From the IMG/VR virus record IMGVR_UViG_3300048797_000367, positions 1 through 34,065 of that record: a stretch of DNA of 34,065 nucleotides; one strand, given 5' to 3'. Both the position numbers and the translations under genes were made by a program. Under the pieces are notes generated by a model. It saw only the letters and a program-made list of their open reading frames with translations, was not told the origin of the DNA and did no database searches. Of the stretch, positions 4,473 through 33,327 are shown piece after piece; the first letter of the stretch is position 1, and the number at the start of each line of letters is the position of its first letter. Origin of the DNA: a virus.

Positions 4473-5314
4473 ACTTTTACAGTCACTCACTAAACACCGG
4501 CATACAGTATCACGCCACCGGGGCCGAGGCCAAAGCCGCCGCCGATAAAGCTATCCGGATATTTGCCCACAACGGGATTACCAACGGCGACGTTATGGAC
4601 ACCATCACCTGGGGCGAGGTCACCGAACGGGCTACTCCAACCGGTGACTTCGGTTATGCCCTCAAACGCCAGGATCGGCTCAGCTACGAAGCCGCCCACC
4701 CCCAGGTGGTCAATAACCGGATGGAGAACGGCGAAGGCGATATGATCCAGATCAAGAACATCAAAGAAAAGGACCTGTTGGAACATGACATGGTCCTGAG
4801 CATCGCTATCATCTGGCTGCACGTAAGCGCCGTTCTTGGCCGCTTCAAGCTGCATACATTCGAGGACATCACGACGTTTGTGCAGCTCTTGTTCGAAGCC
4901 CACGGGGTGAAGCGCGGCGGCTCCGAGGGGAACATGCAGTTCACCACCTTCGACAAAAAATACAAGCTGATCGTAGGGATTCAGAAGACCATCGACTTCG
5001 GGCCGGAGATCGAGGTGGCCAAGCAGAAGATGTTGGAGGCGGTCGAGATGTACCCTGAAGAGGCGAACGACCTGAAAACGATGCTGCTCGCCGCCTATAC
5101 CCAGGTTGACGGGAAATTACGCGTCGCCGAAATCCTGCGGCTGCGTACCTACGAAATAAGTAACCCCACAGCTCGCCCACTCTGGGACGAGGGCATGAAG
5201 ATCATTAACGACGCCCTAACGGTGATCTCCAGCAAGAAGCAGATCAGGCTCTACATGCGCAACAATCCGGGCGACGAATACACAGCCGTACCGCTGCATA
5301 TAGCGGCGCTGTAG
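4469..5314 (+). CDS. DUF3164 family protein with extra N-terminal domain
   Basis: The region from about residue 95 to 281 matches the DUF3164 family found in Mu-like early operons: a segment around GGSEGNMQFTTFDKKYKL, then a helical part, then LRLRTYEI and a C-terminal stretch ending in SSKKQIRLYMR. The biochemical role of DUF3164 is unknown. Residues 1-90 (starting MNFYSHSLNTGIQYHATG) form a separate region not usual for the family, so this may be a fusion of two small early proteins. A GGAGC ribosome binding site precedes the ATG, which overlaps the upstream stop. Confidence 0.75.
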   Translation: MNFYSHSLNTGIQYHATGAEAKAAADKAIRIFAHNGITNGDVMDTITWGEVTERATPTGDFGYALKRQDRLSYEAAHPQVVNNRMENGEGDMIQIKNIKEKDLLEHDMVLSIAIIWLHVSAVLGRFKLHTFEDITTFVQLLFEAHGVKRGGSEGNMQFTTFDKKYKLIVGIQKTIDFGPEIEVAKQKMLEAVEMYPEEANDLKTMLLAAYTQVDGKLRVAEILRLRTYEISNPTARPLWDEGMKIINDALTVISSKKQIRLYMRNNPGDEYTAVPLHIAAL

Positions 5315-5326
5315 GGGGGCTGGGTT

Positions 5327-5509
5327 ATGTTTATCCTGACCGCAATCTGCAGAGAGAAGAAGTGCGACAATAAAGGTATTGCCTTCACAAAAAAGGTGTT
5401 GAAACAAACGTATGAATCCAGTGACGGAACCACGCGGATCAGAACCGACCTGGCATGTCCCATCTGCCGTACATGGGCTCGTATCATCAAAAATGAGGAG
5501 GTGCAGTGA
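5327..5509 (+). CDS. Small zinc-ribbon-like protein (60 aa)
   Basis: The 60-aa product has two cysteine pairs, C8/C13 (CREKKC) and C44/C47 (CPIC), which would suit a small zinc ribbon. No enzymatic motif is seen. It follows the DUF3164 gene after 12 bases, and its TGA overlaps the next ATG. It belongs to the run of tiny coupled genes typical of phage early regions. Its function is not known. Confidence 0.6.
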   Translation: MFILTAICREKKCDNKGIAFTKKVLKQTYESSDGTTRIRTDLACPICRTWARIIKNEEVQ

Positions 5510-5676
5510 TGGCTAAGCCCAAACTTTTATTAGATATGAGCGTTAAGGACGTCGGCGAACTGCGGTCACTGTTGTCCGTGGTGCAGCCGGAAATGCGCGT
5601 TTCTGACGCCAACGGCACCCTACTGCGTGTCAGGGTATACGAGAACGACGGCGAACAGTTTATGGAGGTGGAGTGA
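5509..5676 (+). CDS. Small hypothetical protein (55 aa)
   Basis: This ORF begins MAKPKLLLDMSVKDVGEL and ends EQFMEVE. It has a GAGGTG ribosome binding site, and its ATG overlaps the previous TGA while its own TGA overlaps the next ATG. Both overlaps and the good codon structure support a real gene despite the short length. It is acidic, with no cysteine or membrane segment. I do not recognise a family. Confidence 0.6.
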   Translation: MAKPKLLLDMSVKDVGELRSLLSVVQPEMRVSDANGTLLRVRVYENDGEQFMEVE

Positions 5677-6056
5677 TGCATTGTCCGACGTGCAAAACCA
5701 ATATTGACAGATCAGACATCGGCATCAATCCCAGCCGGGTAGACTTCTCGGCAATCACCGTAGTTATGATCTGCCCCAAATGTGACAAGGGGTGGATGGT
5801 GATGCTGACGTCTCAATCGTTTGTCGAGATTCCGGATCAGCTGGTTCCGCCGCGTGACGATAGCGTAACAGTCGGGATCATGTCGCTGGTCGGCATTATC
5901 GTAGACGAAGCAATGGTTGCTCAGTGGACTGATGAACAGTGTATGAACGCGGTGGACTGGGCCGGGGCGGTGTATATGGAGGCATCGGACAACGACGATG
6001 TCGAGATACCGGAGATGCCGGAATTTTTGGAGCAGTATCAACAAGGAGGTATGTGA
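5676..6056 (+). CDS. Zinc-ribbon protein (126 aa), hypothetical
   Basis: An N-terminal zinc ribbon is evident from CPTC (residues 3-6) and CPKC (34-37), followed by an acidic C-terminal half (SDNDDVEIPEMPEF). Such ribbons occur in DNA- or RNA-binding and assembly proteins; no specific role is visible. I use the ATG at 5676, which overlaps the previous stop, rather than the GTG one codon earlier. The next gene's ATG overlaps this stop, and its ribosome binding site AAGGAGGT lies within this gene's last codons. Confidence 0.65.
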   Translation: MHCPTCKTNIDRSDIGINPSRVDFSAITVVMICPKCDKGWMVMLTSQSFVEIPDQLVPPRDDSVTVGIMSLVGIIVDEAMVAQWTDEQCMNAVDWAGAVYMEASDNDDVEIPEMPEFLEQYQQGGM

Positions 6057-8018: not shown

Positions 8019-8465
8019 ATGCCGACAAAGAACCAGATCATCAAGATCCACGCCCTCAAGGGCTCGCTCAAGCTGGACGACGACACCTACCGCGCCATCC
8101 TGGGCGGCTATGACGTCAAGACGTCCACCAAGCTCACAATCACCAAGGCTGATTTGTTGATCGATGACCTGACCAGGAAGGCCGTCGCTGCCGGTGTCTG
8201 GGAGACGCGCAAGCCTGCCGCCAAAGCCCGTTCCACCCGCAAATTGGCCGACGATGACCAGAGCCGCATGATCCGGGGTATCTGGATTGAGCTGCACGAA
8301 ATGGGTGCGGTGCGCGATTCGTCCGAAACGGCCCTCGCCTCCTACGTCAAGCGCATGACTAACGTCGCCGCCCTGCAATGGCTGGATGTCAAGCAAGCCC
8401 AGCTGGTGATCGAGGCGCTCAAGAAGTGGCGCAAACGAGTAACAATTTTGAATGGTGAATTATGA
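8019..8465 (+). CDS. gemA: GemA / Mu gp16-like regulatory protein (DUF1018)
   Basis: The protein (MPTKNQIIKIHALKGSLKLD, then DDTYRAILGGYDVKTSTKLT) matches the GemA/DUF1018 family of Mu-like phages. In Mu it affects host gene expression and DNA topology during the early phase. The start is the ATG at 8019, with GAAAGGAAGC upstream. The last residues (about TILNGEL) and the stop codon come from an AT-rich dispersed repeat at 8444-8504, so the C-terminus is probably altered. The stop overlaps the next ATG (ATGA). Its position just before mor is as in Mu. Confidence 0.85.
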   Translation: MPTKNQIIKIHALKGSLKLDDDTYRAILGGYDVKTSTKLTITKADLLIDDLTRKAVAAGVWETRKPAAKARSTRKLADDDQSRMIRGIWIELHEMGAVRDSSETALASYVKRMTNVAALQWLDVKQAQLVIEALKKWRKRVTILNGEL

Positions 8466-8504
8466 ATTCTGAATTTAATTCAAAATCCAACATCCAAAAT
8501 CCAT
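8444..8504 (+). repeat. AT-rich dispersed repeat forming a gene junction
   Basis: This stretch (TTTTGAATGGTGAATTATGA, then GAATTCTGAATTTAATTC and a row of CAAAATCCAA-type repeats) is AT-rich, unlike the flanking GC-rich genes. By recall it matches a dispersed AT-rich repeat found between genes in Geobacter-like and other genomes. It encodes the end of GemA, the start codon of the next gene and that gene's first residues. Confidence 0.55.
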
Positions 8505-9007
8505 CATTGCAGATGACCGTCCAGGGCTTCCCCGTCCGCACTTCCGGCCCCAGCTATGTACCGCGCAGCATCCAGGCGCTGCAGATCATCAGTGAATGGA
8601 AATACCAGGTACCCGCTGAGCCGGATCTATGGCTTCGCATGGAAATTGCGATCGCGTTTTCTCAATTCCTCTGCATGCGCCTGGGTAACACACCCGCTGT
8701 CGAGATGCTGCCCTTCACCGCTGAGTCCTGGTTGAATACGGTTGGCGAGGGCATGACAGAACAGCTTGACCGGGAGCGCATTAAAGCCGGGTTTAAACAG
8801 CTCTACAGAACGCTTAAATGGTGGCTGCAACCGGCCGAGTTGTTGAATGTTCTGCCGCGCCGCATCGCGCCGCCACCCTCAAATAAAGTAGCAAAAGCGG
8901 AAGAGGCCGATATCGACACCTCGGCCGGCGGCGATAAGCTCCAGGACATTTTGAATTTGTTGGATGAGAAGGATAGGGAGGGGCACCATGGCAAAACGAC
9001 AGATTGA
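8462..9007 (+). CDS. Mu-like conserved protein between GemA and Mor
   Basis: Residues 30-135 resemble a conserved protein found between GemA and Mor in Mu-like prophages of proteobacteria: the LRLGNTPAVEML-type segment, an ERIKAGFKQLYRTLKWW helix and a closing LNVLPRR. Function is unknown. The ATG at 8462 and the first 14 or so residues (MNSEFNSKSNIQNP) are encoded by the AT-rich repeat at 8444-8504, so the original start may have been lost. It overlaps mor by 20 bases. Confidence 0.7.
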   Translation: MNSEFNSKSNIQNPSLQMTVQGFPVRTSGPSYVPRSIQALQIISEWKYQVPAEPDLWLRMEIAIAFSQFLCMRLGNTPAVEMLPFTAESWLNTVGEGMTEQLDRERIKAGFKQLYRTLKWWLQPAELLNVLPRRIAPPPSNKVAKAEEADIDTSAGGDKLQDILNLLDEKDREGHHGKTTD

Positions 9008-9353
9008 CACGGCGAGGCGAGGCAAGTTCACCGAAATTTTAGAGCAGTTGGTGGCCGGCATTGCTGCCGGATTTATCGAGGAATTCAAGGACGCCGCCGA
9101 GGTTGCCCGCAAGCGCGCCGAGCTGGCCATGAGCAGAATCCAGGCCGAGGCGTCCGGTACCGAGATTTATATCGCCAAGGGACATCTCTGGTTCGTCGGC
9201 GAGAAGCATCGGCGCATCTATCGCCGCTTTACTGGCTCCAACCATGCCGCCCTGGCCAGGGAGTTCAACCTGACCGAGCGACAGATCTACAGCATCATCG
9301 CGATGGTGGGTGCGGAAGAGTTCGAGCGGAAACAGTGCAAATTGTTTGAGTAA
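8988..9353 (+). CDS. mor: Mor-family transcription activator
   Basis: This 121-aa protein matches the Mor/C activator family, which in Mu binds upstream of the middle promoter and recruits RNA polymerase. The N-terminal half is a helical dimerisation region. GTEIYIAKG fits the conserved strand, and GSNHAALAREFNLTERQIYS is the helix-turn-helix (about residues 85-106). The start is the ATG at 8988, with AGGGAGGGG upstream; the longer upstream extension lacks such a site. It is the last gene of the early region. Its TAA stop falls in the 5' core of the first attC-like element. No separate C activator was found in the window. Confidence 0.88.
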   Translation: MAKRQIDTARRGKFTEILEQLVAGIAAGFIEEFKDAAEVARKRAELAMSRIQAEASGTEIYIAKGHLWFVGEKHRRIYRRFTGSNHAALAREFNLTERQIYSIIAMVGAEEFERKQCKLFE

Positions 9354-9410
9354 CGCTCTTCGGGGTGTGCTGCGGGCGCTTCATTCGTCTGCACCACCCC
9401 GTGGTTCTAA
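9348..9410 (+). other. attC-like hairpin after mor
   Basis: Seven bases GAGTAAC at the mor stop and GTTCTAA at 9404-9410 bracket a stem: CGGGGTG (9361-9367) pairs with CACCCCG (9395-9401). Three more pairs continue inward past one unpaired C (9394). Terminal AAC...GTT triplets plus a stem with an extrahelical base are the layout of integron attC sites. It could instead be the mor terminator hairpin, although no T-run follows. This is weaker than the site at 10291-10356. Confidence 0.35.
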
Positions 9411-9422
9411 AGCCTATCGCGC
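9404..9422 (+). repeat. Left arm of 19-bp inverted repeat around methylase
   Basis: The 19 bases starting GTTCTAAAGCC are the exact reverse complement of 10279-10297. The pair encloses the methylase gene. The arms are about 860 bases apart, so a perfect 19-bp match by chance is very unlikely. No target-site duplication is visible outside the arms. Confidence 0.9.
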
Positions 9423-9453
9423 TGGCGACAGCCATAGTTTTTGAGGAAATGAG

Positions 9454-10287
9454 ATGACACCACAACGACCCATATTGAGATACCACGGCGGAAAATGGCG
9501 CATGGCCGCCTGGATCATCCGACACTTTCCCCCCCATGAAGTCTATGTGGAACCGTTTGCCGGATCTGCGAGCGTACTGTTGCAAAAACAGACAGCTCGT
9601 ACCGAAGTGCTGAATGACCTGAACGGTCGGATTGTCTCTGCCTTTCGAGTATTGCGAGATCCGGCGATGTCGGCACGACTGAAAGACATGTTGCAGATGA
9701 CGCCGTGCTCGATCGTGGAATATCTGGCTGCGCGTGAAGTTTCGCCGGACCCGATCGAGGATGCCCGGCGGCTGATCATTTTGGGGCACCAATCGCACGG
9801 CAGCACTGGCGCCTCTGGCAAAAAAAGCGGATGGCGCCGGGGGCTTCGTCCGCGAGGGCCGGCCAGTGCGAACGAATGGGCCAGCTTGCATGAAGCAGTT
9901 ATGGCATGGGCTGACCGGCTCCGCGCCACATATCTAGAATGCAATCCCGCCATCGCGGTTATTGCTCAGTGGGACAGCCCGCAAACTCTGCATTACGTTG
10001 ATCCGCCGTATGTGGCCACAACCCGCGCCAACGGGTTATCAGCATACACCCACGAAATGACCGATAATGACCACCGGGATCTGGCGGAAACGCTGCACAA
10101 ATGCGTGGGGATGGTGGTTTTGTCTGGATACCCGTGCGAATTGTACGATTGGGAATTATACCCTGGCTGGCATCGGGTATATCGATCTACGGTGGCTGAT
10201 AAACAGAAGCCGACCACCGAAGTGCTGTGGATGAACGAGGCGGCTGTCAGGGGGCAAGGGCAGGCTGCATTAGATTTTGCGCGATAG
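9454..10287 (+). CDS. Solitary D12-class adenine-N6 DNA methyltransferase
   Basis: This 277-aa enzyme would methylate adenine in DNA using S-adenosylmethionine. Motif X is seen as LRYHGGKWRM (8-17), the AdoMet-binding motif I as YVEPFAGSASV (31-41) and the catalytic motif IV as DPPY (183-186). The order is that of the Dam/D12 class. No partner restriction enzyme is present nearby, so it is probably an orphan methylase protecting phage DNA or altering regulation. Its target site cannot be read from the sequence. A GAGGAAAT ribosome binding site precedes the ATG. The gene sits in the accessory region, enclosed by perfect 19-bp inverted repeats; its TAG stop is inside the right arm. Confidence 0.9.
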   Translation: MTPQRPILRYHGGKWRMAAWIIRHFPPHEVYVEPFAGSASVLLQKQTARTEVLNDLNGRIVSAFRVLRDPAMSARLKDMLQMTPCSIVEYLAAREVSPDPIEDARRLIILGHQSHGSTGASGKKSGWRRGLRPRGPASANEWASLHEAVMAWADRLRATYLECNPAIAVIAQWDSPQTLHYVDPPYVATTRANGLSAYTHEMTDNDHRDLAETLHKCVGMVVLSGYPCELYDWELYPGWHRVYRSTVADKQKPTTEVLWMNEAAVRGQGQAALDFAR

Positions 10288-10297
10288 GCTTTAGAAC
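10279..10297 (+). repeat. Right arm of 19-bp inverted repeat around methylase
   Basis: This arm, ending CTTTAGAAC, is the exact reverse complement of 9404-9422. It includes the last codons and stop of the methylase, and its last seven bases (TTAGAAC) form the 5' core of the attC-like element that follows. Confidence 0.9.
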
Positions 10298-10356
10298 GAC
10301 CAAGCCCACCAGCGCGGGGGCAGTTTCCCGCGACTGTGTGCGGCGACTGGTTAGGG
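10291..10356 (+). other. attC-like hairpin with extrahelical bases
   Basis: AAC (10295-10297) and GTT (10350-10352) bracket a folded region. After short spacers of 6 and 5 unpaired bases comes a 15-bp stem: GCC CAC CAG CGCGGG (10304-10318) pairs with CCCGCG, CTG, GTG and GGC (10327-10344). Single unpaired bases A333, T337 and C341 (last three digits of position) bulge on the 3' side only. Paired outer core, open central spacer, stem with extrahelical bases on one arm and a terminal loop is the architecture of integron attC sites. Part of the 105-base gap after the methylase is explained by this element. Confidence 0.5.
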
Positions 10357-10381
10357 CAGTGAATCGCCCGCCAGTTAGCAC

Positions 10382-10404
10382 AAAAAAGCCCCTTATTCAG
10401 GGGC
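10382..10404 (-). terminator. Intrinsic terminator of the antisense operon
   Basis: On the minus strand, GCCCCT-loop-AGGGGC forms a 6-bp GC-rich stem followed by six T. The stem overlaps the stop codon of the 144-aa minus-strand gene. This is a standard rho-independent terminator and prevents minus-strand transcripts from entering the methylase gene. Confidence 0.8.
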
Positions 10405-10827
10405 GACGATCTTTGACAACTCCATGCGTATTTTTTCAGGATCAACCTTGGCAAGCTGGGCTTTAAGTTCGGCGGGAACGCGGATGTGAAACATTGCCAT
10501 TGCTTTTCCGGTAGGCTTCCGGCCTGCCCCGTTGCGGTGTCCGCCTCTGCTTTCGCATTTACTGGCGTACCGCTTGGCCCAGCTCGGCAGCATTTCAACG
10601 CACACTGCAAACTGTGCATCTGTGCCGCTCCATGTTGCGCCGAAGTCGGTGGATTTTACAAATGTAAGTCCGGCTTTTTTGGCCTGACAAGCAAGTTCTT
10701 CATAGAGTTGCTGGCCGTTGTCATTTTTGCAGGCTTCTTCATCGCCTTCATAGCAATCAATCAGGGCGGCGACTGTATCTTCTTCGCTGTTGTAATCATT
10801 CGGAATGTCGATCTGAAAAGTTTTCAT
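10393..10827 (-). CDS. Antisense-encoded protein with basic C-terminal segment
   Basis: This 144-aa protein is the second gene of a minus-strand pair. The first 90 residues (MKTFQIDIPNDYNSEEDTVA) are acidic, and no known fold is recognised. The last 55 contain RNGAGRKPTGKAMAMFHIRV followed by PAELKAQL, a basic linker plus strand-helix that resembles ribbon-helix-helix type DNA-binding tails. It could therefore regulate its own operon, but that is inference. GGAGA lies 7 bases before the ATG. It ends in its own intrinsic terminator. Confidence 0.65.
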   Translation of the reverse strand: MKTFQIDIPNDYNSEEDTVAALIDCYEGDEEACKNDNGQQLYEELACQAKKAGLTFVKSTDFGATWSGTDAQFAVCVEMLPSWAKRYASKCESRGGHRNGAGRKPTGKAMAMFHIRVPAELKAQLAKVDPEKIRMELSKIVAPE

Positions 10828-10872
10828 TGTGGTCTCCTGGCCGGGTACGAAGCCCCCGGCAGGCTGAGAGTT

Positions 10873-11064
10873 TTAGATATAGAGAGGTGGGTTTTTTGCG
10901 CGGCTGATAGCTTCTTCCAGCGTTGATGCCTGGTCTTTAATATCTTCGCCGATGGTCACGTAAAAAAGGTTTTCTTTTCTTTGCACTATTTTGATTCCGC
11001 CTGCGAGGTATTCAACAACTTTGCCGCCGAATCTAATTTCGTTTTCGTTTTTATTTGCTTTCAT
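10873..11064 (-). CDS. Small antisense-encoded hypothetical protein (63 aa)
   Basis: This is the first gene of the minus-strand unit. It encodes a 63-aa lysine- and glutamate-rich protein (MKANKNENEIRFGGKVVEYL) with a strand-rich pattern. I do not recognise a family. The ribosome binding site AAGGAGT lies before the ATG, and a strong promoter is about 40 bases upstream. Small paired genes with their own promoter are common as stabilising modules in phage and cassette DNA, but no toxin or antitoxin motif is clear here. Confidence 0.55.
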   Translation of the reverse strand: MKANKNENEIRFGGKVVEYLAGGIKIVQRKENLFYVTIGEDIKDQASTLEEAISRAKNPPLYI

Positions 11065-11104
11065 GGCTGACTCCTTGGTTCGTTTTTTCCTTCACTATGA
11101 TTAT

Positions 11105-11132
11105 AGTATATCACAACTTTGATTATTGTCAA
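11105..11132 (-). promoter_or_regulatory. Sigma70-type promoter for the antisense operon
   Basis: Reading the minus strand, TTGACA (11127-11132) and TATACT (11105-11110) are separated by 16 bases. The -35 is perfect and the -10 matches five of six. It lies about 40 bases upstream of the start codon at 11064, so the small operon should be transcribed independently of phage promoters. Confidence 0.8.
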
Positions 11133-11145
11133 GCGAAAATCAAAG
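11117..11145. promoter_or_regulatory. Putative operator: CTTTGATT inverted repeat over the -35
   Basis: CTTTGATT (11117-11124) and AATCAAAG (11138-11145) are perfect 8-bp inverted arms with centres 21 bp apart, two helical turns. The element overlaps the -35 and spacer of the antisense promoter. A second small palindrome (ACTAT-GATT-ATAGT, 11094-11107) overlaps the -10. Both are well placed for repression by an autoregulator such as the 144-aa protein, but binding is not shown. Confidence 0.55.
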
Positions 11146-11193
11146 AAAAATACGCATAGAGTAAAAATAATTTGCCGACTAAGTTGCAGAGCG

Positions 11194-11257
11194 GCCTAAC
11201 GGCCAGAGCGTTCACCGGGGCGGTTTCATCGCCCCCGGTGAAATAGCCTGGTTATAT
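11194..11257 (+). other. attC-like hairpin before the 86-aa gene
   Basis: GCCTAAC (11194-11200), which fits the RYYYAAC attC core exactly, and GTTATAT (11251-11257) bracket a strong stem: TTCACCGGGG (11211-11220) pairs with CCCCGGTGAA (11233-11242), and CG/CG continues past an unpaired C232. Spacers between core and stem are 10 and 8 bases. It lies between the antisense promoter and the start of the next gene and carries no T-run. It may be an attC site; a simple hairpin is the alternative. Confidence 0.42.
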
Positions 11258-11280
11258 CAAAAACTTAGGAGGTAACGACA

Positions 11281-11541
11281 ATGGTGGAATTAAGAAGAGT
11301 CTCCAAAAGCTGCACGATCTCTATGGGTGGCAGAAGCTACTATGCACAAGAATTACGGCCACATGTTGGAACGGTAATTAAGGCATTTATTGACGACTCA
11401 ATAGGCGGTGCCGATGCCATCTGTTTTACTGTCGACGGCGAATTCATTGCCAATTCTCAAAACAGGTTATTGTGGCTCCAAATGAGTTACAAACGAGATC
11501 CGAGATTGCTTGATGAAATGGTCAACTACAAATCGATATAA
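11281..11541 (+). CDS. Orphan 86-aa protein, possible cassette gene
   Basis: This 86-aa protein (MVELRRVSKSCTISMGGRSY) has no family I recognise. AGGAGGT lies 7 bases upstream of the ATG. The gene begins 24 bases after a GTTATAT core, and its TAA stop is embedded in ATATAAC, the exact reverse complement of that core. A short gene whose ends carry complementary core sites is how integron gene cassettes look. It lies between the antisense unit and the late leader. Its function is not known. Confidence 0.65.
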   Translation: MVELRRVSKSCTISMGGRSYYAQELRPHVGTVIKAFIDDSIGGADAICFTVDGEFIANSQNRLLWLQMSYKRDPRLLDEMVNYKSI

Positions 11542-11592
11542 CGGCTTTAGCTGAACGGTGCGAAGCATCCGCTTCGAGCGTTTTCGTTATGC
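11536..11592 (+). other. attC-like hairpin after the 86-aa gene
   Basis: ATATAAC (11536-11542) and GTTATGC (11586-11592) bracket a stem CGAAGC-ATCC-GCTTCG (11561-11576), with further pairs AACG/CGTT (11554-11557 with 11579-11582) around a small internal loop. The length of 57 bases is in the range of short attC sites. The unpaired spacers are uneven (11 and 3 bases), so this is less regular than 10291-10356. The stop codon of the preceding gene lies in the 5' core. Confidence 0.4.
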
Positions 11593-11594
11593 TG

Positions 11595-11623
11595 TTGACA
11601 TTCCTACCCCATCGCGCTATAAG
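11595..11623 (+). promoter_or_regulatory. Strong sigma70-type promoter before the late region
   Basis: TTGACA (11595-11600) and TATAAG (11618-11623) are separated by exactly 17 bases. The -35 is perfect and the -10 matches five of six positions. Transcription would start near 11630 and run toward the lysis genes, but a strong terminator begins only about 7 bases later. Confidence 0.75.
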
Positions 11624-11636
11624 GCGAAAATACACC

Positions 11637-11676
11637 AAAGCCCTTCTCAACCCCCATTGAGATGGGCTTTTCTTTT
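11637..11676 (+). terminator. Strong intrinsic terminator directly after the promoter
   Basis: AAAGCCC pairs with GGGCTTT (11637-11643 with 11664-11670) and, past a T/T mismatch, TCTCAA with TTGAGA (11645-11650 with 11657-11662). The loop is six bases and the tail is TCTTTT after the stem's own T's. This is a good rho-independent terminator reading toward the late genes, and it may also work on the minus strand. Confidence 0.8.
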
Positions 11677-12014
11677 GAAGCGCTTCAAGTAGAACCCACC
11701 CACCGCATCCCGTATTATCCCCCACATTGAACATCGAATACACGATTACCGGCGGCGCATCATGCCGCCCCCAGGCGGAGGTGGTTATGTCCACTGGCAG
11801 GGTAACGCCCTGCCATCCCGCCCCGGTCCAACAGAGACACCGCCCGAGAGAGGCCGAAAAAAACGCAATAGGTTGGTGAGGCGTGAGCTGCGGGAAGCCT
11901 CCTAGATCCCCGGTCCCTGGCAATGACCGGACAGAAGCCAAAGCGCAGTATTGCGGGCCATGAAAATGGGGGAGCGACAACCCGCTCCCCCCGCCACCAC
12001 GAAAGGAAACCGTC
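11677..12014 (+). other. Late leader region with several hairpins
   Basis: No convincing large gene is seen here. Hairpins are GGCGGC/GCCGCC (11751-11769), GTGG/CCAC (11781-11794), a perfect GGCAGGG/CCCTGCC (11796-11814) and GGGGGAGC/GCTCCCCC (11968-11991). Two short overlapping ORFs are possible: 30 aa from the ATG at 11787 (GGAGG 5 bases upstream) and 47 aa from the ATG at 11762. Neither has a recognisable product. The region could be a structured 5' leader, hold the activator-dependent late promoter, or both. A 14-bp palindrome TTGAAGCGCTTCAA (11675-11688) recurs at 20103-20116. Confidence 0.4.
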
Positions 12015-26382: not shown

Positions 26383-29300
26383 ATGGCTGGTGGACTGGCA
26401 AAATTACGATTGGTGATGGAGATCGATGGCGACAAAGCTGTTGTCACCGGTATGGAGCGGGTAGACGCCGCCATCGATCGCACCGCTCGTACGAGCCAGA
26501 CCGCTACCGAGCGCATGACCGGTGGCATGGGTAATGTTGAGACAGCCACCGGGCGCATGGCGGCAGGCATGGGTAATGTTGAGACTGCTTCTGGTAAGAT
26601 GGCGGCAGGTATGCAGGATCACGCCAAAACGGCCTATATGGGCATGTCCGAGCTGGAAATGGGGATCATGTCTGTTACCATGCGGATCATGAACCTCACC
26701 ATGGCGGTCGGGCTGATCGCCGCGCCATTCGCTTTAGCTGCTAATTCATCCATCGGTTACCTCGCACAGATCGAAACATCTTCTTTAGGCATCGCTGCCG
26801 CGTATATGGCCGGCGGAAAGTACATCGACAATACCACCGGCAAGGCACTGGAAGGCCAGCAGGCTATGAAGGCTGCACAAGCCGATACTGCTCAGGTCAT
26901 GGATCAGTTGAAGGTTGCCAACATGCAGACTATCGCCACCCTTGACCAACTGGTAAGGGCCTATCAAGAAACCCTTCCCGTAGCCATGGCCAAGGGGTTC
27001 AATCGTGACCAGGTTATGCAGTTCACCCAAGCAATGGTACAAGCGGCCGGTGCGATAGGTCTACCCTTTGACCAGATGGGTGAGGAAACCCGTTCGCTCC
27101 TCACCGGTAGCATCAATCCGCGCAACTCCAGGATCGCCACCGTTTTGGGTTTGCGAAATGAAGATATTGCGCCACTGGAAGGCAATGCCACGGCGCTTTT
27201 CGACTTTTTGATGGGAAAGCTTGATGCCTACAGGATCGCCGGGATTGAGTCGCAGAAAACTTGGGCCGGCCTGACAAGCAACCTAAAGGATATTGCTGGA
27301 CAATCGGGCGGGATGGCATTTGAAGGACTTTTTGAGGCGGTCAAATATGAACTAACCGAGATAACAAATAAGATTGTCACCATCGATGAAAAAACCAAAA
27401 CCATTACATGGAACCCTGAGTTTTTATCGTTTATTGAAAATATCAAGCTCGCGGTAGATTCGGTGATAGCCGAGGTTTACCGCCTCAATATGTTGCTGGA
27501 TAAGGCAGGCGGGACTAAAACTTCTATTGATATGCTTGGCGCCGGAGTTGGTTCAGGCTTGGGCATATCTAAACAAGAACATCCTTTTTTAGCCATGGTG
27601 TTCGGATCAAAAGAAGAATTCGAGGCAGCTGCAAAAAAGAACATTGAATATGCTGACAGATATCTGGCAAGCGACAAGGCTCTCCAAACGATGGCGAATA
27701 GGGAGGCTGGTCTTGATGCAAGTGGTAACCCGTTGAAAAAATCAGCAGGGAACAATTCTTATAACTCCAACCCGCATAAATCTGAAGATGACGCCGCGGC
27801 TAAGCAAAAGTTGGCCGAAGAACAGGCTAAATACGACAAACAATACCTCGACTCCGAAGCCGCGCTAAAACACCAGTACCTGGAGAACGCCAAGAGCGTC
27901 GATAACGCCGCGCTCAAAGACCGTCTCGCGCAACTCCAATACGAAAAGGATATGGGGCTCAAAACCACACAGGAGTATCTTGATGCCAAGTATGCCATGG
28001 AGCGTGTCGCGTGGCAAAAGGAGCTTGATACAGCCAATGAGCAGGCCAAGGCAAGCTATCTGGTATATGCCGCCGTAAGCAAAAATCCCGGTGCTGATGC
28101 CATTATGCAAAATAAGGCGGAGCAAGAGTACGTCAAGACGCTTGGTGAAGCTTTTAAGATCAAAGAGAAGATGGACGCTGCTACCACCCAGAAACCGCGT
28201 GATGAGGCCAAAAACGCCGACGTCGAATACTGGAACAGCGTCAACGCCAACTGGCACGAGGGTAAGAAATCGATTGATGAGGTTGAATCGGCCATTAAAG
28301 CGGTCTTTGCCCTGGGTAAAAACGGCGATGAATCCCCTTTGCACTTCTTTGCCGAGGATGTCCGCAAAGCCACTCTGGCGTTTTCACAGGCCGGTGATTC
28401 CTTCGGCGTTACTGCCGAGGCCTACGTATCTACTATCGAAGAAGCCGTTGCCAAGCTGACCGGCATTTCGCTCAAAGACCTCACCGCCTCAAATAATACC
28501 CTTGCCGCCAGTCAGATTGGCGTCGATATGACCACCGGTCAGGTCACTGATCCGTACGCCAACCAGACGGCAATGATGGAGGATCGGTATAAAAAAGAAT
28601 TCGCTCTTATCGATGAGCGGACCGACAGAATCAAAGCAGCCATGGCCGCCGAATTGGATCTCGGCCCACCTAACCTGGCCGTCTATGCCACCCTGCAAAA
28701 GCAAATGGCTGGAGAGACTACAAAGCGAACTCTGACTGAGAACGAGCAGACGATAGCCCAGGCAAAGCTTGATGATGAATCCTACCGGGGCCGCCTATCC
28801 GCCGCTTCACAATATACCGGCATGGCCGGGCAGCTGTTCGGTGAACTTGCCGGGGCTCAGGATCAATCCAGCCGGGCGGGTTTTGAAAGCGCAAAAGCCT
28901 ATAACCTGGCCGCTGTCATAATGAACACCGCCTCGGCGATCATGGCGCAACTGTCCACCCCTGGGCCGGTTGGTTGGGCTGGCGCCACCTTGGCTGGGCT
29001 TACTGGGATTATAGAATATACCAAAGTTGCAAATACAACATTTGGTGGCGGTGGCTCGGTCTCCACCGCTCCTGGTTCGCCTGGCAGTTCAGGCGGCAGC
29101 GGAGGTGCTGCAGGCAGCGGCATAGGCGCAAGAGTCACGAGCATTCAAGATCAGCAGACCGGCGCACAGCTTGACGTAATAGCCGACAGAATGGGCAGCG
29201 CGTCACTGGCAATGGGGAAAGCGGCTGGCAGCCTCTACGACATCAGCAAATCATTCACGGACCCGCAGGGCAAGGCTGCTCTGTCCGGTGCGCCTGGCGT

Positions 29301-32300
29301 CAACGCTCCTTTGGCAAGCAAGGCGATAACATGGTCATCCGTGGGTGAGAGTTTGTTCGGAGGAGGTTGGAGGCCTACCGGCAGCGGCTTTAACATGGGC
29401 TTATCTGGTGGCAATGTCACCGGCAGCGAGTATCTGGACAGCACCAAAAAAGGCGGCTTGTTCCAAAGCGATAGTCACTATACGGAAATTACTGCCATGG
29501 ATGCAGGATTTAGAGCCGCATTGCAGTTTGAAGTGACTTCAATGGTGGGTGATATACGCAAAAACGCTATTGCCATGGGGTTCAATGGCACGTCGTTCGA
29601 CAGCAGTGTCAGTGGTGTATCTGTCAAGGATGCCAGAATAGCCACAGCAGGCAGATCACAAGAGGATATCGCCAAGGACGTACAGGCACAGCAGCTCCTG
29701 TATGCCAATACCATTGCCGCACTGATACCGGGTCTGGAACAGTTCCGTCTGTACGGGGAGGATATTTCAGCGACAGTCCAGCGGTTAGGTGGGGCGATTC
29801 GTGATGTTAACGACCAGTTTGCCTTAGTCGGGAAAACCTTGATTATTTCCTCTAATGAAGGTGCAAACGCAGCTTTTAAATTGCAGGACGCTTTCGGTGG
29901 CGCTGAAGCTATGGCAACCGCCATGGATGACTATTTCACCGCCATGTATACCGACACCGAACAAGCGGCAATGAATGCGGCAGCAGCAACACGCACCGTC
30001 AACACCGGTTTTGCTGAAATGGGGCTTCAAGTTCCCAAAACAAACGCCGAATTCAACGCACTGCGTAATAGCGTTACTGATCCGGCATTATTTGCGGCAC
30101 TTACCCTTCTCGGCCCGACGTTCGCGGAGATAACCAAAAGAGCCACGGAACTTGCAGACACCAACGATAACCTGACCGTGACGCTGTTGGACCTCCAAGG
30201 CAAATCCGTCGAGTCCCTGGCACTCAAGCGTAAACTGGAAACCGCTGAAATGGATGCCTCCACCCTCGCTATCCAGAATCAGATATACGCGCTGACCGAC
30301 CAGAAAATCGCCACGGATGCCGCTGCCGCTGCCGCTGCCGCTGCCGCTGCTTTTAATGCCGATATCACTACACGTCTACTAAATGTTACTGGTCAAACTC
30401 AATTAGCTAGTCTGATTACCCTCCAAACATCCCAGGAAAAGGAACTTTCCGCCGCAAAACTGGCGGGCATGGATACCACCTTTCTTGTAGAGTTGCAGAC
30501 CCTTGAAATGGCTGATGCGATGAAGACCGCCGCTAACACCATATCTGCTGCTACTCAGAAGATTCTTGACGCCGCCAAGTCGGCCCTCACTGATTCGATC
30601 AGTGTCACACAATCTATTTTACAGACCAAGGTAACGCTACTCACTGGCCCTGCGGCGAACCTGTCACCTGAAGCGGCGTACAATCAAGCCAAGGCCCGCT
30701 TTGAAGGAGCAGACGTCAACACGGTATCTGCCCTAACCACCGCGTTTATCGATGCATCCAAAAACTACAACGGCAGTGGCACCGCGTACAAAACTGATTA
30801 TCAGGCGGGACTTGATAAACTGGATTCCTTCGCAGGCGTGAAAGGCGACTTGACCCAGACGGAACAGCAGCTGGCTTTGCTGGACAAAATTGCAAAAGCG
30901 GTAGGAGATAATAACGGGGTATTGGTTCAGCAGCTCTCGCTGACATGGGAGGCGTTGCAGATTGATACAGGTGCAGCTAGTAGCAGTCTATCTACCGCGT
31001 ACTCTGCTCTGTCAACAATGCTGGCTACACCGCTAACACTGGCCGACGATAATGCTGCAAGTTCCGCCCAGACCAAAATCAGCTTGCTTCAAGGGGTTCT
31101 AAATACCGGTGTCAGTGGTTCTGCGGCGGCGGTTATAACAAACCAGATTGGCATATTGCAGGCAGCGGTTGACGGCACTATATCGGCAGATGCAGCTCAG
31201 GCGGCAATATACACGTCGTATGTAACTGTGCAGGGTGCATTGGACGGCACTATCAACGGCGATACCGCGATGGCAGCGATTAATGCGCAAGGGCTGACTA
31301 TCCAGAACACGTTAAACTGTACTATTAACGGGACGACAGCTGGGGATCTCATTGCAGCACAAGCGGTGCTGGTACAAGCGGCTGTATCAGGTGCTATTGA
31401 CGGGGCAACGGCGGTAACGGCGTTGGGGCTACAGGCTGATCTTATCAATAACACCCTGAACGGCACTATTAACGGCCCAGATGTCGCCAATGTAATTTCT
31501 GGTCAGGCGGGGATTGCAGTATTGGCATTGTCAGGGGCTATCGACGGCCCAACGGCTTGGACTGAAATCGACACTCAGGCAAAAATCGTGAGAGGGGCTC
31601 TTAGCGGTTCGATTGATGGGACTGTGGCAAGCGCCGCAATCGGCATCCAGTCCGGTTACATCAATGCGGCTGTGATTGGTTTGCAAACTGCTGTCGGTTC
31701 TAACATTAACACCACCGTTTCACCAACTCTGGCTGCAGGGGTAGGAAATCTCCAAACTGCTGTGGAAACGGGTATAGCAACGGAGATTTCAGGTACGCTC
31801 GCAACCGGTAGAGGAAATCTGCAAACCGCTGTTGGTGCCGGGATCACCACTACCGTGTCTCCAACCCTTGGAACAGGCGTGAGCAACCTGCAAACCGCTG
31901 TCGGTACCGGGATCACCACTACCGTGTCTCCGACCCTGGCAACCGGGCGTACGAACTTACAGGGCGCTATTAGTACGGCAATTATAACTGATATATCCAC
32001 TTCGCTTGCTACTGGTCGCAACAACCTGCAAACCTCTGTCGGTACGGGAATAATCTCTACTGTATCTCCAACCCTTGGAACAGGCGTGAGCAACCTACAA
32101 ACCGCTGTCGGTACCGGGATCACCACTACCGTGTCTCCAACCCTTGGAACAGGCGTGAGCAACCTGCAAACCGCTGTCGGCACGGCAATAACAACAACTG
32201 TTTCGTCAACTTTAGCTACTGGTCGCGGCAACCTGCAAAGTGCCGTGGGTACGGGAATAACTACCGCTATTTCAACAACCTTCGCCGATGGTAGAGCTGC

Positions 32301-33327
32301 TGTACAAACGGCACTTAATACCGGGCTTACGGGTGTGACAACTACAGGAATTACAGGCTCTACCGGATACGGCGGGATAGTAACGGCACTAAATACTGGT
32401 ATTAACATCTCCACTGCAACTGCCAATATCGCGGGTTCAACTGGGTTCGGAGGGATCACTACTGCACTTAATACAGGCCTAAACGGACCTACAAACTCAG
32501 TTAGCGCCAACCTCATAACATTCAACAAAGCCCTGGCCGATTCCGCAACCGCTACCCAAACCGGATTAACCAAATTCGTCAATGCTCTGGCTATTGTGAG
32601 TAACTACACGAGTCAACAAACAGCCGCTCAAGCAGCATTAAGCTCTTTACGTGATCAGTATACCTCTGGTGCCATCACTGGCGATCAGTATACTGCCCAA
32701 ACAGCGGCGGCCTTAGCACCAATTAACGCCACGATTGCGGCAGGAACAGCGGTAGGGCTAACGACATTAACAGCACCCAGAGATGTAAATACGGAAATGA
32801 GGGTACATGCAAATAACATTATAGGTAGGCTTGGAGAATTTGTCCTCTCTTACGGGAACCCACGGACTGGCGACCCGAACGTCTATGTTCCATACTCCGC
32901 AGCGACAGCTAAATATGATCTTAATAGGGATGGGGTACTAAACCTTGCCGATCAAAATCTTTGGGCTTCAATAGGTAATGGCTCTCTGAGCTGGTCGTCA
33001 CTCGGTATGCCTGCTTTCGCCACTGGCGGCGATCACCTCGGCGGCTATCGTATCGTCGGTGAACGTGGAATCGAACTTGAGGCCACTGGCCCCTCACGGA
33101 TCTTCAATGCCGACCAGACCCGCAACATCTTCCGAAATGGCAGTGCCGACAACAAAGAGCCGGTAGCAGAGCTGAAAGAGCAAAACCGTCTCTTGCGGGA
33201 ATTATTGGCGGAGGCAAAAGCTGGTGTCCGCGTAGCACAGGCGGTGGGTACTGAAACAATAGCAATCGGCAAACGGCAGGAACGCAACGGCAAAGACCTT
33301 GCAAATTCAGCACGACTGGCGGCGTAA
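26383..33327 (+). CDS. Tape measure protein (2314 aa)
   Basis: This protein sets tail length and is ejected during infection. The N-terminus has a small duplication around GNVETATGRMAAGM, then hydrophobic stretches at about residues 89-118 and 838-882. Residues about 470-640 are coiled-coil-like, and an alanine run of 11 is encoded by a GCCGCT repeat (30319-30351). Two repeat ladders follow: 24-aa units at 31099-31671 and 23-aa units at 31678-32298. The end (ATGGDHLGGYRIVGERGIEL, then a coiled-coil tail) is typical of tape measure C-termini. At about 1.5 angstrom per residue the tail would be near 350 nm. A dockerin-like DLNRDGVLNLADQN lies at 2179-2192. The ATG at 26383 is preceded by AAAAGGG. 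Confidence 0.9.
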   Translation: MAGGLAKLRLVMEIDGDKAVVTGMERVDAAIDRTARTSQTATERMTGGMGNVETATGRMAAGMGNVETASGKMAAGMQDHAKTAYMGMSELEMGIMSVTMRIMNLTMAVGLIAAPFALAANSSIGYLAQIETSSLGIAAAYMAGGKYIDNTTGKALEGQQAMKAAQADTAQVMDQLKVANMQTIATLDQLVRAYQETLPVAMAKGFNRDQVMQFTQAMVQAAGAIGLPFDQMGEETRSLLTGSINPRNSRIATVLGLRNEDIAPLEGNATALFDFLMGKLDAYRIAGIESQKTWAGLTSNLKDIAGQSGGMAFEGLFEAVKYELTEITNKIVTIDEKTKTITWNPEFLSFIENIKLAVDSVIAEVYRLNMLLDKAGGTKTSIDMLGAGVGSGLGISKQEHPFLAMVFGSKEEFEAAAKKNIEYADRYLASDKALQTMANREAGLDASGNPLKKSAGNNSYNSNPHKSEDDAAAKQKLAEEQAKYDKQYLDSEAALKHQYLENAKSVDNAALKDRLAQLQYEKDMGLKTTQEYLDAKYAMERVAWQKELDTANEQAKASYLVYAAVSKNPGADAIMQNKAEQEYVKTLGEAFKIKEKMDAATTQKPRDEAKNADVEYWNSVNANWHEGKKSIDEVESAIKAVFALGKNGDESPLHFFAEDVRKATLAFSQAGDSFGVTAEAYVSTIEEAVAKLTGISLKDLTASNNTLAASQIGVDMTTGQVTDPYANQTAMMEDRYKKEFALIDERTDRIKAAMAAELDLGPPNLAVYATLQKQMAGETTKRTLTENEQTIAQAKLDDESYRGRLSAASQYTGMAGQLFGELAGAQDQSSRAGFESAKAYNLAAVIMNTASAIMAQLSTPGPVGWAGATLAGLTGIIEYTKVANTTFGGGGSVSTAPGSPGSSGGSGGAAGSGIGARVTSIQDQQTGAQLDVIADRMGSASLAMGKAAGSLYDISKSFTDPQGKAALSGAPGVNAPLASKAITWSSVGESLFGGGWRPTGSGFNMGLSGGNVTGSEYLDSTKKGGLFQSDSHYTEITAMDAGFRAALQFEVTSMVGDIRKNAIAMGFNGTSFDSSVSGVSVKDARIATAGRSQEDIAKDVQAQQLLYANTIAALIPGLEQFRLYGEDISATVQRLGGAIRDVNDQFALVGKTLIISSNEGANAAFKLQDAFGGAEAMATAMDDYFTAMYTDTEQAAMNAAAATRTVNTGFAEMGLQVPKTNAEFNALRNSVTDPALFAALTLLGPTFAEITKRATELADTNDNLTVTLLDLQGKSVESLALKRKLETAEMDASTLAIQNQIYALTDQKIATDAAAAAAAAAAAFNADITTRLLNVTGQTQLASLITLQTSQEKELSAAKLAGMDTTFLVELQTLEMADAMKTAANTISAATQKILDAAKSALTDSISVTQSILQTKVTLLTGPAANLSPEAAYNQAKARFEGADVNTVSALTTAFIDASKNYNGSGTAYKTDYQAGLDKLDSFAGVKGDLTQTEQQLALLDKIAKAVGDNNGVLVQQLSLTWEALQIDTGAASSSLSTAYSALSTMLATPLTLADDNAASSAQTKISLLQGVLNTGVSGSAAAVITNQIGILQAAVDGTISADAAQAAIYTSYVTVQGALDGTINGDTAMAAINAQGLTIQNTLNCTINGTTAGDLIAAQAVLVQAAVSGAIDGATAVTALGLQADLINNTLNGTINGPDVANVISGQAGIAVLALSGAIDGPTAWTEIDTQAKIVRGALSGSIDGTVASAAIGIQSGYINAAVIGLQTAVGSNINTTVSPTLAAGVGNLQTAVETGIATEISGTLATGRGNLQTAVGAGITTTVSPTLGTGVSNLQTAVGTGITTTVSPTLATGRTNLQGAISTAIITDISTSLATGRNNLQTSVGTGIISTVSPTLGTGVSNLQTAVGTGITTTVSPTLGTGVSNLQTAVGTAITTTVSSTLATGRGNLQSAVGTGITTAISTTFADGRAAVQTALNTGLTGVTTTGITGSTGYGGIVTALNTGINISTATANIAGSTGFGGITTALNTGLNGPTNSVSANLITFNKALADSATATQTGLTKFVNALAIVSNYTSQQTAAQAALSSLRDQYTSGAITGDQYTAQTAAALAPINATIAAGTAVGLTTLTAPRDVNTEMRVHANNIIGRLGEFVLSYGNPRTGDPNVYVPYSAATAKYDLNRDGVLNLADQNLWASIGNGSLSWSSLGMPAFATGGDHLGGYRIVGERGIELEATGPSRIFNADQTRNIFRNGSADNKEPVAELKEQNRLLRELLAEAKAGVRVAQAVGTETIAIGKRQERNGKDLANSARLAA
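31099..31671 (+). repeat. Tape measure repeat ladder A (24-aa units)
   Basis: Eight consecutive units of 24 aa (first one 23) share the pattern L/V-x-G-x-I-x-G followed by a helix, for example LSGAIDGPTAWTEIDTQAKI. At the DNA level the units differ more than those of ladder B, so this array is older. It would give a regular rod-like structure of fixed repeat length. Confidence 0.8.
31678..32298 (+). repeat. Tape measure repeat ladder B (23-aa / 69-bp units)
   Basis: Nine units of 23 aa read NLQTAVGTGITTTVSPTLGT with few changes. Several neighbouring units are nearly identical at the DNA level over most of 69 bp, for example around 31888, 32092 and 32161, which points to recent duplication or gene conversion. 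Three more divergent, slightly longer units (about 26 aa) continue to about 32500. Confidence 0.85.

Follow-up and report, generated by a model that had tools for sequence, protein, structure and literature searches.

The segment between positions 9352 and 11592 of the window (the whole stretch of DNA analysed here, a 34,065-nt virus fragment from IMG/VR) is very probably an integron cassette array, consisting of three cassettes and four attC sites without an integrase (CALIN). The CALIN criterion of at least two attC sites with no integrase nearby is met by the window, which agrees with the preliminary description of an integrase-free attC cluster carried as cargo of a Mu-like phage directly after mor. 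A complete integron is not supported, as no tyrosine-recombinase or Phage_integrase family match was found in the record (a linear fragment), again as the preliminary description had it, and the attI motif of the phage IntI clade described below is absent from the window. Since neither the attI motif nor an integrase is present, the array may be inert in this copy. Beyond the window, the reading somewhat favoured here is that of a dedicated phage-integron lineage with its own IntI clade and attI, and with a private pool of gene-inverted cassettes read with the phage. It would reside within operons of terminase, portal, primase or middle genes in temperate phages that are unrelated to one another, with cassettes moving between phage families and mainly varying anti-restriction methylases.

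The record carries a Mu-like gene set, namely a transposase (rve and Mu-transpos_C domains), an AAA ATPase, GemA and Mor, followed past the cargo by an endolysin, a terminase, a Mu-type portal and a Mu F-like protein. The middle-operon activator gene mor (8964-9353, plus strand; PF08765, 2.9e-20) ends in a TAA stop codon (9351-9353) that extends into the core of the leftmost attC site. At the right border of the slot stands a promoter-like block, TTGACA...ATAAGGCG (11595-11626, plus strand), which is conserved among relatives and is inferred to be the Mor-dependent middle promoter Pm; the last attC site lies three bases from its TTGACA. In four relatives (L004, L005, L009 and L012) the block follows directly 3' of mor and the slot is empty, while it holds a short unit in L003, several kb of other genes in L002 and cassette arrays in the window, L010 and L011. 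Such very different contents between mor and Pm among related phages identify 9352-11592 as a cargo slot. Relatives found via Mor include four bacterial MAG contigs (one from Geobacteraceae), all four from one class (the host class below); the sister phages are mostly known as metagenomic contigs from a few samples, and GenBank phages with similar DNA gave endolysin-type matches only. As separate observations, the slot of L001 (2040-5050) and of L006/L007 (L006 7360-10250) appears, judged by eye, to hold diversity-generating retroelement-like content, with repeated variable-protein genes and a reverse-transcriptase-like ORF. The empty-slot Mu-like relative L012 has a lone attC-like site (4951-5010; 13.3 bits with the R2 model described below) upstream of mor; over 54 bp it shares 96% identity with a site in L087, a contig of an unrelated phage, and its identity to a site in L101 is 94%. 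Close to the end of the window (26383-33327), a very long ORF (2314 aa) remains without annotation here.

Four hairpins bounded by AAC and GTT are found where the preliminary description had placed them, and they are identified as attC sites oriented on the minus strand by their fit to covariance models, the match of attC1 being too weak to count by itself. On its own score attC1, the site of the methylase cassette (9352-9406; AAC 9352-9354, GTT 9404-9406), reaches only 9.0 bits with the R2 covariance model (E 0.4 within 2.6 kb), and its position is also occupied in L010 and L011. The site of the two-gene cassette, attC2 (10291-10356; AAC 10295-10297, GTT 10350-10352), scores only 15.2 bits with R2 (E 0.01) and 15.3 bits with R1. 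Higher scores were obtained for attC3 (11194-11257; AAC 11198-11200, GTT 11251-11253; 25.4 bits, E 2.5e-5), which belongs to the cassette of an 86-aa ORF, and for the best site, attC4 (11536-11592; AAC 11540-11542, GTT 11586-11588; 33.0 bits, E 3e-7), whose cassette body is inferred to be lost here and to which a 47-bit attC of chromosomal type in genome G003 (L084 9255-9312) is similar. The top four R2 matches in 9200-11800 are exactly these sites, with identical boundaries and all on the minus strand; the next-best match there scores 6.8 bits, and the best elsewhere in the window 12.8 bits. Of the 18 R2 matches in 246 kb of loci from phages and relatives, 17 lie on the minus strand.

The attC check proposed earlier was carried out with covariance models built for this analysis (not those of IntegronFinder or HattCI), whose E-values are roughly calibrated. 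Eleven class 1 attC sites from plasmids made up R1; class 1 copies overwhelmed the IntI1 search of plasmids, which served only as a source of these seeds. Long arrays beside IntI in host-class chromosomes were recovered by R1, nearly all on the strand opposite intI, as expected. Since R1 alone was borderline on the window (15.4 bits; 20.3 bits unfiltered), it was extended with chromosomal sites only to give R2, which rests on 56 such R1 matches (chromosomal and class 1, three wrong-strand class 1 matches included) and on zero phage sites. Rfam gave no match at gathering level, and no attC family was hit. A simple hairpin scanner anchored on AAC/GTT was dropped as too unspecific and the covariance models were used instead. 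The folding energies of the hairpins are only modestly better than those of shuffles (z about -1.6 to -3.1), and hence the hairpins alone are no proof.

With all attC sites on the minus strand, the array reads from the Pm side towards mor. The preliminary description had assumed the opposite orientation and had given each unit the attC on its right; this has to be revised, as each unit's own attC lies on its left (confirmed by a homologous cassette in genome G264), and the rightmost site belongs to the lost cassette instead of the 86-aa unit. The stop codons noticed at attC edges are indeed there, but they lie on the R' side of the adjacent attC and not in the 5' core of a unit's own site, a consequence of the inversion of most genes relative to attC.

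The body of the methylase cassette carries a DNA N6-adenine methyltransferase gene (9454-10287, plus strand; PF02086, 1e-18; phrog_56, 1.7e-64), for which relatives in IMG/VR show only 37-56% identity. The two-gene cassette comprises a 144-aa ORF (10393-10827, minus strand), which is sense with its attC, has no family match and has a 73% identical protein in G264, and a 63-aa ORF (10873-11064, minus strand) known only as an ORF with weak PHROG matches. Its sigma-70-like promoter (TTGACA-16-TATACT; 11103-11132, minus strand) agrees with 11 of 12 consensus bases, and the G264 cassette likewise has TTGACA and a TATACT-like hexamer. The 86-aa ORF (11281-11541, plus strand), antisense to its attC, is weakly like a C-terminal piece of Mu transposase (PF09299, E 0.011; phrog_310, 7.4e-6). 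No cassette-protein relatives of the two-gene and 86-aa units were found in IMG/VR. The complementarity between unit start and unit end (R''/R'), claimed earlier as 7/7, 6/7 and 7/7, is borne out and measures 19, 6 and 8 nt for the methylase, two-gene and 86-aa units, longer than claimed for the first and the last; by the same measure 9-13 nt is typical for host-class chromosomal cassettes and 10-13 nt occurs in other phage cassettes. The 19 nt correspond to a perfect inverted repeat round the methylase body (left arm 9404-9422, plus strand; right arm 10279-10297, minus strand). This repeat exceeds the usual 9-13 nt and could allow flipping of the body relative to attC, creating inverted cassettes.

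Comparison with G264 (contig L128/L111) indicates that the cassettes are mobile and exchanged whole with breaks at G/TT, even though no recombination was observed. The window's two-gene cassette is present in G264 (DNA identity of 78% and 90% over two stretches, protein identity of 73%), with an attC of the same type, the attC2 homologue, on its left as in the window. Rightward, it is joined straight to the window's attC4 sequence (45/45 bases) at G/TTAGGC. On the minus strand, the junction reads ...TCAGCTAAAGCCG/TTAGGCCGCTC in G264, and the window junctions read ...TCTGGCCG/TTAGGCCGCTC and ...TCAGCTAAAGCCG/TTATATC. The window thus holds one additional cassette (the 86-aa ORF with attC3) with both junctions at G/TT, and the G264 junctions reveal which attC goes with which body, in agreement with the minus orientation. 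The expectation of related arrays distinguished by entire cassettes, with the breaks at G/TT, is met here in one direct comparison; as the two-gene and 86-aa units lack relatives in IMG/VR, gain and loss rest on this comparison and on the attI border described below. In G264, the site identical to attC4 ends a C5-methylase-like cassette, and the array contig, with its DUF1064-like and RdgC-like genes, looks phage-like. Apart from this, a single attC sequence was seen to close two different cassettes within the G264 array (L128, L111).

The same slot in L010, a Mu-like relative with mor 85% and endolysin 72% identical to the window on either side, houses a full platform of array, attI-like site and intI, any activity of attI being inferred from sequence alone. 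It contains six attC-like sites (four found by R2), together with an integron integrase on the plus strand; the site at mor shares 90% identity with one that adjoins an IntI in G248. This IntI scores 375.6 bits with TIGR02249 (cut-off 265), meets the criterion of an IntI-specific domain and finds its best PDB match in VchIntIA (2a3v, 1.8e-64); its catalytic residues were identified by eye. The intI gene lies downstream of the array, and the orientation of attC relative to it is the usual divergent one. Between intI and the array, at 10190, stands the attI-like motif TAACWAYNNTTATC, the attI-like sequence of this IntI being given as TAACAATAATTATC. The motif occurs upstream of intI in L010, L014/L086, L015, L016/L087, L017/L088 and L018/L089, also beside an intI remnant in L020, and in none of the unrelated loci examined. 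When six phage platforms are aligned, the sequence to the left of intI varies until a TAAC core is reached and is conserved from there on, and this onset of similarity marks attI.

Integrases 77-82% identical to that of L010 are found in other IMG/VR contigs, and a profile scan reached 20 loci. Seventeen of these phage IntIs, that of L010 among them, group in a single clade (SH-aLRT 99, quick tree) beside chromosomal IntIs. The sampling of the tree favours such clustering, but in 277 class genomes no other IntI exceeds about 52% identity to that of L010; GenBank phages yielded distant IntIs only. According to PHROGs, a terminase large subunit gene is located downstream of IntI in L014/L086, L093-L097, L101 and L104 and a portal gene in L099; in L018/L089 the terminase precedes IntI and the portal follows it, and L016/L087, L017/L088 and L091 carry a primase gene. 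The matching integrase in the core genomes of related viruses suggests that a whole phage lineage runs its own gene-capture device. The host search for IntI suggested earlier was also productive, with IntI above the cut-off in 65 of 146 host-class genomes, apart from the one in the related phage's slot.

Integron insertion fixes the orientation of attC. In the phage arrays 28 genes are antisense and 4 sense to attC (antisense at 28 of 35 phage sites), whereas ordinary arrays (chromosomal and class 1) show 38 sense and 5 antisense (Fisher p about 2e-11). The count takes ORFs of at least 60 aa stopping within 12 nt of the attC edge; as the ORFs were called mechanically and sites within one array are not independent, the p value is only a guide. 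In the window, the methylase and the 86-aa ORF, i.e., two of the three cassettes, are antisense to attC and do not fit the ordinary cassette, while the two-gene cassette, on the attC strand, does. Being inverted relative to attC, the methylase, mor (also antisense) and the 86-aa ORF run in the phage's transcription direction. It may be inferred that, with attI and attC setting the polarity of insertion, it is the gene-inverted cassettes that are of use to a rightward phage operon. The origin of such cassettes, given that attC orientation is fixed on insertion, is a question raised by these data. Separately, an integron on a bacterial contig (L084 8400-11230, genome G003) holds phage-like gene-inverted cassettes and is possibly a prophage or an integron of phage origin.

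Hairpins that are ordinary terminators or intergenic stem-loops between phage morons, with GTT/AAC matches by chance, could account for folding energies only modestly better than those of shuffles, and attC sites can double as weak terminators (PMC9892861). Nevertheless, this explanation is scarcely tenable: the attC models pick exactly these sites on a single strand, the three terminator-like matches in the region are as many as in shuffles and none falls at an attC site, attC4 is identical over 45/45 bases to the site adjoining the swapped cassette in G264, the G264 junctions contradict it, and the same slot in L010 contains intI and attI. Equally implausible is a separate small transposon or MITE formed by the methylase unit, in which the 19-bp repeat would be its terminal inverted repeats. 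The repeat is perfect, but the unit has no transposase, no target duplication was seen, and the repeat starts inside the attC cores and extends the normal 9-13 nt R''/R' complementarity.

A fossil origin is doubtful but deserves more weight. Illegitimate-recombination capture of attC from host integrons has reportedly been proposed for some phage CALINs, and an array captured in this way from a host chromosomal integron and never used in the phage would be consistent with the missing integrase, the weak attC1, the truncated first cassette and a host class rich in IntI. Such an origin is opposed by the intI-bearing sister arrays at the same phage position, the gene orientation (28 antisense to 4 sense in phages, 5 to 38 in hosts) and the occurrence of the nearest array (G264) on a phage-looking contig.

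Under the preferred reading of a cassette array used by the phages, IntI of the phage lineage or of the host would fold the attC bottom strand (inferred to be the plus strand of the window) and would cut at G/TT, inserting or excising cassettes at attI beside intI or at attC. For the window copy, a later loss of attI/intI and of the first cassette's body is inferred, and the array could still be acted on by IntI of the host or of a co-infecting phage. The two-gene cassette, in ordinary orientation, would use its own promoter. The likely benefit would be swappable anti-restriction methylases and other accessory genes.

Integrons are best known for collecting antibiotic-resistance genes and are usually viewed as bacterial devices occasionally picked up by phages. 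The related integrases and the conserved attI-like site adjoining core phage genes in several different phages make phages possible owners, and not merely carriers, of a cassette-capture system, which would provide a route for shuffling counter-defence genes between unrelated phages. CALINs and integrons have been described in bacteriophage genomes, and IntI1 recombines some of the attC sites found there with attI1 (Qi et al., 2023; PMC9892861). Like the window, these phage CALINs have attC-bounded cassettes, no integrase and methyltransferase cargo; however, they do not occupy a fixed slot in Mu-like phages, most of them follow the arrangement of host cassettes, and the phage IntIs look host-captured, in contrast to the distinct clade among core phage genes and the inverted genes reported here. 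A phage IntI clade residing in head/packaging operons was not found in the open-access literature, and neither were gene-inverted cassettes (the scope excluded subscription papers and preprints).

The sedentary chromosomal integrons of the host class share the attC type, the cassette-end complementarity and the divergence of intI from attC orientation, but in them, as in class 1 arrays, cassette genes run with attC, unlike in phage arrays. Besides L010's own, the best host IntI is about 52% identical to the phage IntI. In Treponema-type integrons (PMC3607928) intI lies upstream and faces attI, whereas in the phage platform intI lies downstream of the array, the attC-intI orientation is usual and it is the genes that are inverted. 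In the phage Virus Rctr41k (KX853513.1, L105), an IntI-like gene (42% identical) occurs together with two attC-like matches, but the attC sites lie on the plus strand downstream of intI and the integrase falls outside the phage clade in the tree. This virus comes from an anaerobic methane-oxidising enrichment, and its IntI-like gene is annotated xerD (features at 4680-5678 and 8415-8813, with intI upstream).
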